32,404 nucleotides of DNA. Origin: Bacteroides sp. Marseille-P3684 (GTDB lineage: Bacteria > Bacteroidota > Bacteroidia > Bacteroidales > Bacteroidaceae). Position numbers and translations under genes: made by a program. Shown in pieces: positions 2,929 through 23,111 of the stretch; within the stretch, counting starts at the first letter, position 1, and each line of letters opens with the position of its first letter. The notes under the pieces were generated by a model that was given only the letters and a program-made list of their open reading frames with translations, was not told the DNA's origin and did no database searches. The DNA lies in contig NZ_LT985808.1 in NCBI RefSeq assembly GCF_900291465.1, positions 3,617,079 to 3,649,482 of the forward strand, written 5' to 3'.

Positions 2929-3374
2929 TGACAAAATGTCAAACGAAGGGGGCTACAATGTCTTTCCTCGCACCAAAATACGATTTGGTGGATTCGGAGG
3001 GCCTTCTCGGGCGATTCGCAAAATACAAATTGATGCAGACAGGGGTGTCGGAACAACATTCCGGAGGGTGTTGGGAACGGATGGATGTCCTTTTTCTGTT
3101 TTCTGTTCCTAATGGGTTCCTTTTTATTACCTTCCGATTTGTTGACAGCACCCTTCTTCTAGAGAGTGAAACTCACTTCTTTTTACTTCCGTTTTCCAAA
3201 GATTTGACTTCCGGGCACGAAACAATTGTGTTTGGGAGGTGAAACTATATTGTTTGAGGCGGCAAACTATATTGTTTGGCGCGCGAAACAATATTGTTCC
3301 GGGCACGTTTTGTCTGTTTTTCGAAAATGAAATGTATAGTTTTCTAAAATGAAGGGCATTTTTCCGGCGTTTCG
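2929..3374 (+). repeat. dispersed non-coding element, copy 1 (contains a 22-bp-period array)
   Basis: About 445 bp that recur in inverted orientation at 22660-23094. Conserved modules in order: a TGACA-nnn-TGTCA dyad at 2929-2941; a block around GGCGATTCGCAAAATACA; a very similar block about 3118-3210 with CCTTCTTCTAGAGAG; then the 22-bp array. Open frames through it are not maintained between copies (one-base indels, frame changes), so a protein is unlikely. It sits between the rRNA operon and susC with no gene of its own. Confidence 0.8.
3197..3374. repeat. 22-bp-period palindrome array inside copy 1
   Basis: Successive 22-bp units are each a 16-bp dyad core plus a 6-bp spacer. Clear cores are GAAACAATTGTGTTTG, GAAACTATATTGTTTG, CAAACTATATTGTTTG and GAAACAATATTGTTCC, with spacers GGAGGT, AGGCGG, GCGCGC and GGGCAC. 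The first clear core starts at 3219. More degenerate units keep the same period on either side. The 22-bp period is not a multiple of three, which argues against coding. Confidence 0.75.
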
Positions 3375-13147: not shown

Positions 13148-14501
13148 TCTCGTATGCCTTCCGTTTGTCATATTGTTCTTTCCCATAAATCAAAGTCTCG
13201 TAGAGTTGTTTTGCCAGCACCTTTCCGCCGTGGAAGTTGATGTGCGTATAATCCAGGTTCGCCTGGGCAGGCTTTGCCTGGACCATCCGACGGATACTGC
13301 CCTCGCCTCCCATGGCGTCATAGAGGTTCCAGAACGCCACACCTGCCTTGGCGGCGATGGTCTGCTGGTAACGGATGAGGTTCTTCACACCGGGCATCGT
13401 GCGCAGGTTGCCCTCCTCGTCCTTGTGCTCGCGGTCTCCCACACCGACGACGAGGATGCCTGCCTGCGGGAATGCCTCCTTCAGGTGCTCGATGACGGTC
13501 AGCATGCCGCGTTCGTAGCCGTCGTAGTTGCTGCCTCGCGGCGTAGCGACGTTCAGTCCGAACTGCAGCACGATGAGGTCATAGGGACGGTAGGCGTTGA
13601 ACTGTCTCAGGCGGCTCATGGGGATGCTGCGCATGGTCAGTCCGCTGCTGCTGCGCACTCCGAAGTTGTCGACAGCAATACCCGTCCGTCCATCCATGGC
13701 AAAGCCGTAGAAGGTTGCCGTGTCGGCACGGTTCACGGTCCAGCGGACCCGCTTGATGTTGCCGGTGCAGTCGAGTTTCTGCAGACGTCCGTTGCCCTCG
13801 ACCGTCCGGGGCTCTCCATCCACCCCGTTGACCGTGGTGGTGAGGGTCACGGGACCCTTGTTCTCAAAGAAGATGGTCGCCACCTCGCAGCTGTCGAGTC
13901 GTCCGCGGCTCACCTTCGGAGTCTGTGCCTCCACGTACGCCCCTTCACGGGGAATGAAGTAGTGTCCGGAGAGTCCCAGCCGGGCAGGGTCATAGCCCAG
14001 CGAGTCGAGTATACCGCGCGTGCGCCATCCGCCGAAGTTGTGACGGACGGTCTGACGGAAGCCGTGCGTGTTGGACGTGATGTCAACAAAGCCTACCCCG
14101 CAACCGCCGTAACGTGCCTGCAACAGGTCGCGCAGGTCGCCCGTCAGGATATCCGCCTCGATGAACGAGTCGCCGAAGTAAGCGATGCGCACAGGACGTT
14201 GGCTGACGTGGGACAAGGCTTCATAAAAGGGCTTCATGCCCCGTTGGGTGGAGTCGGCATAGTCCTCGATGCAGGTCAGTCCGGTCTTGCAGGTATCCAC
14301 AAAAGCCGGTTTGACGGGAGGAGGCAGGGGGACTGTGTCGAGCAACTCGGGTTCCGGTTCCTTGACTTCCACGTCAGAGAGCAGGTTGACCCGACGGAGG
14401 GTGTAGCCGTTGATGGTGATGGCAGGCAGGAAATGCAGCCCCAGCAGGGCGACCACCACCAGCAACGTCAAGATAAACGTACGTGAGAGATAATTCTTCA
14501 T
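13137..14501 (-). CDS. membrane-anchored SGNH/GDSL hydrolase-fold protein
   Basis: 454 residues and the first gene of the cassette. Residues 5-24 form one N-terminal membrane segment. A Pro/Glu-rich linker at about 46-66 follows, then an SGNH domain split by a beta-rich insert (about 180-280). Catalytic blocks: YFGDSFIEAD with Ser112, QFGLNVA with Asn317, and DYTHINFHG with Asp417 and His420. The insert resembles an interrupted SGNH fold with a carbohydrate-binding-like module. The start is the ATG giving MKNYLS; earlier in-frame ATGs would add about 76 residues running into the repeat array. The two SGNH proteins differ in sequence and probably do different steps, as AlgJ and AlgX do; that comparison is inference. 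Confidence 0.88.
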   Translation of the reverse strand: MKNYLSRTFILTLLVVVALLGLHFLPAITINGYTLRRVNLLSDVEVKEPEPELLDTVPLPPPVKPAFVDTCKTGLTCIEDYADSTQRGMKPFYEALSHVSQRPVRIAYFGDSFIEADILTGDLRDLLQARYGGCGVGFVDITSNTHGFRQTVRHNFGGWRTRGILDSLGYDPARLGLSGHYFIPREGAYVEAQTPKVSRGRLDSCEVATIFFENKGPVTLTTTVNGVDGEPRTVEGNGRLQKLDCTGNIKRVRWTVNRADTATFYGFAMDGRTGIAVDNFGVRSSSGLTMRSIPMSRLRQFNAYRPYDLIVLQFGLNVATPRGSNYDGYERGMLTVIEHLKEAFPQAGILVVGVGDREHKDEEGNLRTMPGVKNLIRYQQTIAAKAGVAFWNLYDAMGGEGSIRRMVQAKPAQANLDYTHINFHGGKVLAKQLYETLIYGKEQYDKRKAYENEQ

Positions 14502-14550: not shown

Positions 14551-14638
14551 GCTTTCCCGTCTGTTTTTTCGCGCATCGGAGCAAGAAGACGTGCCCGACA
14601 CCCTGTTTTCAGCCGCCGGTAATACGGAATACATCGCC

Positions 14639-14881
14639 CGGACATTTGCATTTGACCGTGCAAACACAAGCCTTTGACCGGACAAACACAAGCCTTTGAT
14701 ACGGCAAACATAAGTGTTTGATATATCAAAGTATTATACTTAGCCTGCCAAAGTATTATACTTAGCCTGCCAAAGTATTATACTTAGGTCTATCAAACTA
14801 CTATGTTTGCCAGGTCAAACACTTGTGTTTGGTGTGTCAAACTAATGTGTTTCATCTGTCGAATGGCTGTATTTGCCGGGG
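14639..14881. repeat. 11-unit array of 22-bp palindromic repeats
   Basis: Units start about every 22 bp from 14639 to 14881; one is 23 bp. Each has a 16-bp dyad core followed by a 6-bp spacer. Core examples are CAAACATAAGTGTTTG, CAAAGTATTATACTTA (two identical neighbouring units plus a third), CAAACTACTATGTTTG, CAAACACTTGTGTTTG and CAAACTAATGTGTTTC. Arms differ between units, but left and right arms change together so the dyad is kept. Spacers vary freely (ACCGGA, ATACGG, ATATAT, GCCTGC and others). It lies between an outer-membrane gene remnant and the MBOAT cassette. The units are far too short and the spacers too small for a CRISPR. Confidence 0.85.
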
Positions 14882-14921
14882 CAAAGTCCGGACTACGGGA
14901 GGAACAGTGAGGTCTGTAAAC

Positions 14922-14960
14922 ATACAAAATCCGGCTATAAGACAGACTTATAACCGGATT
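14922..14960 (-). terminator. terminator downstream of the outer-membrane gene remnant
   Basis: Arms AATCCGGCTATAAG (14928-14941) and CTTATAACCGGATT (14947-14960) are inverted with one mismatch. On the minus strand the stem is followed by TTTTGTATGTTT. It lies about 45 bp past the remnant's stop codon, so it once ended that gene. Confidence 0.75.
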
Positions 14961-15003: not shown

Positions 15004-15216
15004 TCAATATCTTAATCCGATGGACAGGTAGGCACCTCCATAGTTGGCAACGCCTTTGGTACGTGAATCGAGGAACCTGTATCCCAACTCAACGACCGGG
15101 GAGAATTTCCCGGCATTCATGTACCATGCCAACGATGCGTCGTACGTGGTTCGCTTTCAGTCGGGATTAGCCAGACATCCCAAGGCCTTTGCACGCACCA
15201 ACACTTCTTCATACGA
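15004..15216 (-). pseudogene. 3' remnant of an outer-membrane beta-barrel protein gene
   Basis: On the minus strand an open frame of 50 codons ends in GGAYLSIGLRY, the alternating aromatic C-terminus of an outer-membrane barrel. Before it come ASLAWYMNAGKFSPVVELGY and RFLDSRTKGVANY. An in-frame TGA at 15157-15159 interrupts it. Upstream of that stop the same frame carries 19 more plausible codons ending RAKALGCLANPD, closed by TAA. No start or signal peptide remains. Codon use is GC-rich like the neighbours and a terminator follows. It is therefore a decayed end of a host-like gene; the family cannot be named more closely. Confidence 0.6.
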
Positions 15217-22326: not shown

Positions 22327-22659
22327 AGGCATTTCTGTCGATGCCGCAAGCCCCGCTCCCAAGCGACGCTTGCAGCGGTTGAAGGCAACAATCGTGTTTT
22401 TGTTGCTAAGACTCCCATCCGGGTAGATACTACTATTCCATGAGTGTTAAAAAACACAAAGACATGATTGCAGGCGCATGGGGAAGTTCCTGCAGACAGA
22501 CCATTCCCCTCTACCACACAGCCTCGTTTATCAAAAAGCAAGCATCCCGTCTCATCTGCTTGACAGATTCGCCCCCCAAACACCCTTTGCGCTAACGCCT
22601 ACTTTTGAAGATTTCCTTCAAAGAGCGTTCAACTGCTAAATCTGTTTAACAGAGCTCAC
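22327..22659. other. gene-free stretch where an ECF sigma gene would be expected
   Basis: Contains small perfect hairpins (CAAGCGACGCTTG near 22359; GTGTT/AACAC around 22445-22458). No frame with sigma-factor region 2 or 4 motifs is seen on either strand. The fecR-operon promoter must be here or beyond, but I could not place a good TAnnTTTG box. Confidence 0.45.
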
Positions 22660-23094
22660 GAAAAACGCCTTCTATTTTAGAAAACTATACATTTCATTCC
22701 CGAAAAACAGACAAAACGTGCCCGGAACAATATTGTTTCGCGAGCCAAACAATATCGTTTGCCGCCTCAAACAATATAGTTTCACCACCCAAACACAATT
22801 GTTTCGCGCCCGAAAGTCAAATCTTTGGAAAATGGAAGTAAAAAGAAGTGAGTTTCGCTCTCTAGAAGAAGGGGCTGTCAACAAAGCGGAAGGTAATAAA
22901 AAGAGGGGCATAACAGAGTGACAAGCAGTAAAAGGATGCAATCATCCCCTTTCAGCCCTCCCCTATGCAACCGAAAGAAGTCATTTGCCGCCAATCTGTA
23001 TTTTGCGAATCGTCCGGGAAGACCCTCGAAATCCACGAAACCGTATTTGGGTGCAACGAAAGGGTGTGTAGAGAGGTTCGTTTGACAATGTGTC
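22660..23094 (-). repeat. dispersed non-coding element, copy 2 (inverted relative to copy 1)
   Basis: Reading the minus strand from 23094 down reproduces the module order of copy 1: TGACA-nnn-TGTCAAACGA, the GGACGATTCGCAAAATACA block, CCTTCTTCTAGAGAG and the 22-bp array, ending near TTTAGAAAACTATACATTTC. The best-conserved part corresponds to copy 1 positions 3118-3210 and differs there by only a few substitutions and a one-base indel. It lies between the fecR operon and the GH43 gene. Confidence 0.8.
22672..22845. repeat. 22-bp-period palindrome array inside copy 2
   Basis: Plus-strand cores include GGAACAATATTGTTTC, CAAACAATATCGTTTG, CAAACAATATAGTTTC and CAAACACAATTGTTTC. They are separated by the 6-bp spacers GCGAGC, CCGCCT, ACCACC and GCGCCC. 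The 22-bp phase continues into more degenerate units on both sides. It is the same 16+6 design as the array at 14639-14881. Confidence 0.75.
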
Positions 23095-23111
23095 AGGATG
23101 GATAGGAAATG

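Follow-up and report, generated by a model that had tools for sequence, protein, structure and literature searches.

Dyad-symmetric units in an exact 22-bp step form a dispersed intergenic repeat, with putative sites of a dimeric protein, in a Bacteroidaceae genome

The locus described here raises the question of what an array of short palindromic units, one every 22 bp, might be doing between the genes of a bacterial chromosome, and whether it is the sequence of such an array or its spacing that is kept. The array lies in a window of 32,404 nucleotides (the whole stretch of DNA that was analysed) from a genome of 3.71 Mb (G000) belonging to the Bacteroidaceae, near Phocaeicola; for a neighbouring gene the nearest named relative found was Phocaeicola coprophilus (75% amino-acid identity). 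The reading that we favour, with a probability of about 0.4, is that the array is a copy of a dispersed, species-specific repeat located between genes and composed of dyad-symmetric units in an exact 22-bp step, and that these dyads are putative sites of a dimeric DNA-binding protein assembling from the core outward.

The original prediction of eleven units, one every 22 bp, was borne out: positions 14639-14875 hold 11 units in exact 22-bp register (four outer, three core and four outer units), and TRF reported period 22 over 14651-14787, in three rows. Beyond what had been predicted, the array is a mirror image, sitting within a mirror-symmetric element of approximately 260 bp, and the same window contains two related arrays (3229-3298 and 22726-22815); all three have period 22 according to TRF. 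The features of the array and its immediate surroundings are as follows.

14637..14896, no strand assigned: whole element (of the type termed A-long below), mirror-symmetric, with CCGGAC/GTCCGGAC edges that are common to other A-long copies, by eye
14639..14720, no strand assigned: left outer units, four 16-mers starting at 14639, 14661, 14683 and 14705
14729..14785, no strand assigned: core, three identical odd palindromes AAGTATTATACTT in 22-bp steps, starting at 14729, 14751 and 14773
14794..14875, no strand assigned: right outer units, four 16-mers starting at 14794, 14816, 14838 and 14860, which roughly mirror those on the left
14928..14960, minus strand: hairpin resembling a terminator, with T after it, which lies upstream of the array with respect to transcription (by eye)
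13185..14501, minus strand: flanking gene for a GDSL-like acylhydrolase (PF13472, E 2.8e-8), its start codon approximately 140 bp from the array

The core units are odd palindromes of the AAGTATNATACTT type, and in the window array all three are the same perfect 13-mer. The outer units are even palindromes of the CAAACN6GTTTG type and of uneven quality, since 6-7 of 8 dyad pairs are present in just two (14705 and 14816) of the eight 16-mers. Each side resembles the other in reverse complement, with ACAAG in the left outer units and CTTGT in the right ones, and a half-base phase shift is found at each of the two outer/core junctions. Four-dyad chains of period 22 scored 22-25 out of 32 in this array, compared with a maximum of 19-20 in five Markov-shuffled windows. 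The spacers had been thought to drift, but most of those in the core are close, by eye, to one of a few GC-rich sequences, read in either orientation. For the segment 14636-14897 the predicted fold is a single long, imperfect hairpin (-102.3 kcal/mol, z -9.5), and its great stability is explained by the mirror symmetry of the array. Rfam models, applied to the whole window at the gathering threshold, matched rRNA and tRNA only, the array matching no known RNA family. Adjoining the array, at 15010-15160 on the minus strand, there is a remnant that resembles the C-terminus of an outer-membrane beta-barrel; its translation, judged by eye, indicates that it is probably a gene fragment.

Analysis of the host genome revealed that arrays of this type recur at scores of loci, so that a single occurrence can be rejected. 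We counted 219 exact AAACN6GTTT unit pairs (25 in the reversed-pattern control) and 113 exact pairs of AAGTATNATACTT (AAGTAT-type) units (none in the control), and the region 0-1.556 Mb of the chromosome carries 47 array loci, i.e. approximately one per 33 kb (listed places merged by eye). The 41 A-type arrays examined comprise (i) 15 A-long arrays, built as in the window, and (ii) 26 A-short arrays, in which three core units are accompanied by GC-rich outer units of different sequence, with the register unchanged. None of the A-type arrays, the window array included, has a leader or a tail, 39 of 40 A loci fall outside long ORFs, and the number of exact core units varies from 1 to 17. The 17 exact core units occur in an A-long array at G000:C1:1443816-1444180 (L139 1416-1781), and look like an expansion by slippage that affected the core alone. 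In five A-long loci examined by eye no target duplication was seen, and their flanks had nothing in common beyond the array except similar terminator hairpins. The hairpins adjoining the A-long loci L133, L140, L141, L142 and L145 are alike (GGGTGTATCGC...GCGATGCACCC and similar sequences), as if terminators belonged to the repeated element or formed a repeat family of their own.

The two related arrays of the window belong to larger elements, designated B-type.

22527..23095, plus strand: B-type element of approximately 545-570 bp with a conserved leader and tail and a AAACAATATTGTTT-type dyad array at 22724-22816 (TRF 22726-22815); limits inferred from match ends and a 25-locus consensus
2929..3364, minus strand: second B-type element (the part covered by BLAST, 81% identity; G000:C1:3620007-3620442, minus strand), with its array at approximately 3219-3300 (TRF 3229-3298)

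The latter is located between a 16S rRNA gene and a gene for a TonB-dependent receptor. The B-type reference has at least 63 matching stretches across the host genome (101 candidates, 40 of them scored), and the 25-locus consensus displays, by eye, weak inverted ends TTGACARAAT. A further repeat family, also recognised by eye, is present at 2845-2876 of the window (period 15) and beside B elements at loci L154 and L157; it has GTAGGGGCGACCGGTCTGGTCGCC-like ends and runs of GGTCCAATAACG-like units of approximately 15 bp.

Within the host genome the register is kept while the units diverge. For outer units 1-4 of the A-long arrays, the best match to the family consensus was at offset 0 in 106 of 120 cases (nine were off by 1-2 bases and five lay elsewhere), at a mean identity of 61-76% (the divergence over A-type outer units overall is 24-42%); for outer units 1-2 of the A-short arrays, offset 0 was best in 94 of 104 cases, at a mean identity of 58-60%. 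This signal fades past unit 4-5 in A-long and past unit 3 in A-short arrays. The spacing of exact neighbouring cores over 40 other loci was 22 in 95/97 cases. For exact B dyads, 49/50 spacings were 22. The arrays thus display the fixed register under sequence divergence that is a feature of phased arrays, and we infer that bacterial intergenic DNA diverged to this degree would have gathered more indels. The near-invariance of the core and the fall in conservation from core to edge partly reflect ascertainment, because the 40 A loci were chosen by core sequence or BLAST; outer unit 1 of the A-long arrays is less conserved (0.64) than unit 2 (0.76).

We also examined how far the array extends beyond this genome. 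An exact-pair search of 60 relatives, 14 of them congeneric, detected no AAAC-type or AAGTAT-type unit pairs, and AAAC-type exact pairs were missing from all 14 congeners in a genus-level repeat search of 15 genomes. Viral contigs contained no exact match to the AAGTAT-type pair or to three consecutive AAAC-type units. A Phocaeicola record (L093) carries a short array of GAAACTTTTGTTTC, the arms of which are identical to those of the B units of the host genome.

The period was followed with TRF, which is blind to the motif, in 1.64 Mb of other Bacteroidaceae, 0.93 Mb of other Bacteroidota and 0.15 Mb of E. coli. Among arrays of at least 2.2 copies in the other Bacteroidaceae, period 22 is in excess (38 arrays, with 10 of period 21, six of period 18, four of period 24 and three of period 23); a single period-22 array was found in the other Bacteroidota and none in E. 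coli. One genome, G008, supplies 11 of the 38, and without it 27 period-22 arrays are left vs 8 of period 21. Part of the sampled stretches had been picked after arrays were seen in G008, G019 and G023; with these array-guided stretches removed the counts are 18 vs 5 in 0.84 Mb, and 12 vs 5 when G008 and L091 are removed as well. Of 28 Bacteroidaceae genomes or loci represented by 10 kb or more (named loci and genomes may overlap), 13 carried period-22 arrays, mostly of other sequence; in 12 of the 15 array-free ones the sample was 40 kb or less. The conservation in relatives on which the original prediction depended was therefore found for the period and not for the sequence, which suggests that it is the spacing that is being kept.

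The units of these arrays are diverse. The G008 unit GAGCGN2CATATGN2CGCTC has 36 exact copies in that genome; no exact copy turned up in a search of 60 others, and a similar motif is present in L091; other period-22 units are GGACGACACATGTATCGTCC in L096, ACAAAATAAGTTGATTTGT in G019 and GTTTCCCCAGTGGGAAAC in G016. At least three unrelated 22-bp dyad families were observed in G019 (loci L186 and L193-L200), namely CAAAATAAGTTGATTTG, CGACCTAGGTCG with CGATCG between, and AAAGCTATGCTTT. Tandem arrays of 23 bp were also noted, consisting of dyad-symmetric CAGATGTACGTCTGACGCAGTGA in G008 (L218) and of 5.7 copies at L109 16593-16723, in a Paraprevotella record. Immediately upstream of the homologous gene in L090 and L091 there is no period-22 array.

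In the relatives, four-dyad chains at a strict threshold gave one period-22 cluster; at a lower threshold they gave 18 clusters of period 22, 10 of period 21, seven of period 23, 10 of period 33 and 0-7 for the other periods within 16-40. Of 12 unit families, 10 (two of the host genome, eight of other genomes) had pooled units that exceeded column permutation at p<0.05, and two of G023 failed, in tests that are optimistic because several seeds had been picked from the dyad-chain list. Unselected arrays showed a dyad excess for period 22 (n=39, mean z 1.07, p 2e-5) and for other periods (n=42, mean z 0.72, p 0.004), the difference between them being non-significant (p 0.20); taken singly, 7/39 and 6/42 arrays, respectively, reached p<0.05. 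The period is thus the robust shared property, and dyad symmetry is clear in several species but unproven generally.

It had also been proposed that the arms differ among units yet stay complementary within each unit, and that this reflects selection on dyad symmetry. Differing but complementary arms do distinguish the AAACN6GTTT class from the AAGTATNATACTT class, but the claim did not hold within the outer class. For 119 distinct outer units from 15 arrays, pairing was maximal at the right centre (533/952), with an excess over a stratified shuffle of z 3.4, while slid centres reached z values of up to 7.6. Because these controls were as high as the right centre or higher, within-unit covariation could not be claimed, and covarying arms were dropped as an explanation. 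A within-unit shuffle gave 384/736 vs 349 for the A-long outer units (p 0.001) and 157/329 vs 154 for the first outer units of A-short arrays (p 0.37). The left and right arms of A-long elements are 57% identical in mirror image (approximately 25% being assumed for unrelated DNA); the two arms of one array were no more alike than arms taken from separate arrays (A-long, p 0.32 and 0.16; A-short, p 0.27 and 0.35). Judged by the slid-centre and left-right arm tests, selection acting through covariation within this family was not confirmed. In the 18 tandem contexts, G-T pairs were not more frequent than A-C mismatches in the transcribed sense (54 vs 63, p 0.46).

Gene context was established with two callers, both of which are crude ORF scripts. 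With the same caller used for both sets, A-type loci were enriched in convergent gaps (17/39, vs 58/366 gaps in relatives, p 1e-4). The 40 A loci of the host were classed by the first caller as convergent (17), tandem (17), divergent (0) and uncalled (6), and by the second as convergent (17), tandem (15), divergent (7) and coding (1); exclusively convergent placement, or absence from divergent gaps, was dropped because of this disagreement (0/40 vs 7/40 divergent). The period-22 arrays of relatives showed no convergent bias (3/32) and, according to the second caller, 9/32 are in divergent gaps; the context of B-type elements was uncalled in 21 of 31 cases. A folding-based finder placed a terminator-like hairpin between the gene 3' end and the array at 18/21 A-long and 10/32 A-short gene ends (a first, stricter finder had detected hairpins at 16/49 gene ends, i.e. 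13/21 A-long and 3/28 A-short). A-short arrays are often near a stop codon with no intervening hairpin terminator (22/32 gene ends), and their cores are often 30-200 bp past stop codons.

This context bears on the idea that the repeat works at the RNA level, the array being transcribed as a 3' untranslated region whose hairpin would end or protect transcripts, and would do so for both genes where two converge, as a 3' function of the REP/BIME kind. The enrichment in convergent gaps, the A-short cores that soon follow stop codons and the fold of the window array (z -9.5) are consistent with it. However, that fold stability follows from mirror symmetry, neither left-right covariation nor an excess of wobble pairs was detected, and arrays also occur in divergent gaps, both in the host and in relatives, by the second caller (though at none of the 40 host loci by the first). 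Because terminators precede most A-long arrays and fewer A-short ones, this speaks against a hairpin RNA for the former, and what room is left for it concerns the latter; overall we regard an RNA-level element, which the original prediction had listed as a hairpin array, as improbable. Another possibility is that the two A classes mark chromosome domains, one being a site class for the origin side and the other for the terminus side, much as MatP/matS or SlmA sites do. Skew puts the origin at approximately 0.45 Mb and the terminus at approximately 2.3 Mb, and the median distance to the skew-inferred origin was 0.52 Mb for the 15 A-long and 1.38 Mb for the 26 A-short arrays (p 0.0025; p 0.0105 and 0.0007 with the origin set at 0.35 or 0.55 Mb), which may reflect function or local copying. 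Such marks nevertheless seem very improbable to us: the origin and terminus derive from the skew of sampled loci, the comparison covers 41 classed arrays, the two classes overlap broadly (there are A-short arrays at 0.08 and 0.37 Mb and A-long arrays at 2.00 and 2.14 Mb), local copying between neighbours would give the same pattern, and sister species would be expected to share the marks. The spacing of arrays along the chromosome is near random and not clearly regular, as judged from 46 intervals in 0-1.556 Mb (CV 0.87; KS vs exponential, p 0.0498). A single Bac_DnaA match was noted at G000:C1:2947344-2947829, far from the skew-inferred origin at approximately 0.45 Mb.

Several known systems invite comparison. 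Plasmid partition and iteron regions, as well as matS, Noc and SlmA sites, are arrays of palindromic protein sites. The host arrays share with them dyads phased near two helical turns, and nucleation and spread are plausible; they differ in that they occupy scores of chromosomal loci, that exact unit pairs were not found in sister species and that the partner protein is putative. A plasmid-like iteron or partition site, as had been suggested, appears unlikely because the copy number is so high across the chromosome. Species-specific intergenic palindrome arrays are already known as a kind, and full-length stem-loop MITEs (ERIC and Correia elements) are intergenic, dispersed and inverted repeats over their whole length. 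ERIC and Correia elements each have one fixed sequence, whereas here phased dyads surround a variable number of exact cores; the MITE features seen by eye are the weak TTGACARAAT inverted ends of B and the CCGGAC edges of A-long.

BrickBuilt of Porphyromonas gingivalis, in the accessible part of its description (PMC4596501), is a minisatellite-MITE with a 23-nt unit, a leader, a tail and IS5-like ends; the same text mentions 22-nt tandem repeats in strain W83, their positions not being given there. As far as this source goes, the two have several features in common: both are dispersed and intergenic in Bacteroidales, with a tandem unit of approximately two helical turns and predicted long stem-loops, both surround the repeats with a leader and tail (B-type), and both are confined to a species and a near relative. 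The differences are the unit length (23 nt there, 22 bp in all three window arrays), the A-type, which lacks leader and tail and is mirror-symmetric around its core, and the several unit families that share one register within one genome. The IS5-like ends GAGACCTTTGCA had three window matches (up to 2 mismatches) vs 2.98 expected by chance, none of them at the elements. REP/BIME sequences with their RAYT genes, as far as they are covered by the accessible text of PMC3733652 and PMC2817692, likewise consist of intergenic palindromic units in multi-copy arrays, a feature found here too, and occur in high copy in some species only. They differ from the host repeat, which has AT-rich core units at a strict 22-bp register and no Y1_Tnp gene (PF01797: 0 matches in the host genome, 6 candidates scored; 5/14 control genomes positive). 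For each of these two kinds, a tested defining feature is thus missing here: unit length and ends in the case of BrickBuilt, the RAYT gene in that of RAYT-linked REP/BIME. In the open-access literature, including the accessible parts of PMC4060949 and PMC5771137, we found no description of an exact period shared by unrelated sequences across a bacterial family.

The chief rival to protein sites is accordingly a selfish or neutral repeat, i.e. BrickBuilt-like MITEs whose internal minisatellite was grown and homogenised by slippage or gene conversion, and which, having no use for the host, persist where insertion is harmless. The B-type element of approximately 545 bp, with its leader, array, tail and weak inverted ends, resembles BrickBuilt in this respect; the dispersed copies, the lack of exact unit pairs in the 60 relatives searched and the slippage-like 17-unit core also fit, as does the placement of A-long arrays past terminator-like hairpins and of A loci in convergent gaps, where insertion would do little harm. 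What this leaves unexplained is the period 22 of unrelated sequences in many Bacteroidaceae, nearly missing from the sampled other families. Moreover, tandem duplication does not yield mirror symmetry around a core, target duplications or common flanks were not seen at A-type loci (five loci, by eye; similar terminators aside), and a RAYT-type transposase (PF01797) was not found in the host genome. We consider a selfish origin quite possible, without being persuaded of it; it is also compatible with protein sites, as a repeat that spreads selfishly may in addition be read by a protein.

Among the candidates of the original prediction, a cooperative dimeric protein, itself putative, is our best guess. 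Each dyad would be the site of a homodimeric DNA-binding protein, and the 22-bp step, equal to two helical turns, would set the dimers on about one face of the helix. Cooperative assembly would start at the core (TAAGTATNATACTTA) and extend outward over the weaker outer units, producing a local nucleoprotein patch between genes. We infer the binding, the dimeric state, the spread from the core and any usefulness to the cell. A system of this kind, with a different recognition sequence, would exist in other Bacteroidaceae, the sequence turning over like a satellite and the step being retained. The broadest form of this proposal, which we regard as unlikely though worth stating, is that phased dyad arrays make up a chromosomal system common to the Bacteroidaceae: from species to species the 22-bp step would be retained and the recognition sequence exchanged, and a fast-evolving DNA-binding protein would turn over together with the sequence of its array, as in centromere satellites. 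Should a protein indeed read this step, a family dominant in the gut would possess a general factor that organises the chromosome or propagates repeats, and the arrays would provide a bacterial case of satellite-like turnover.
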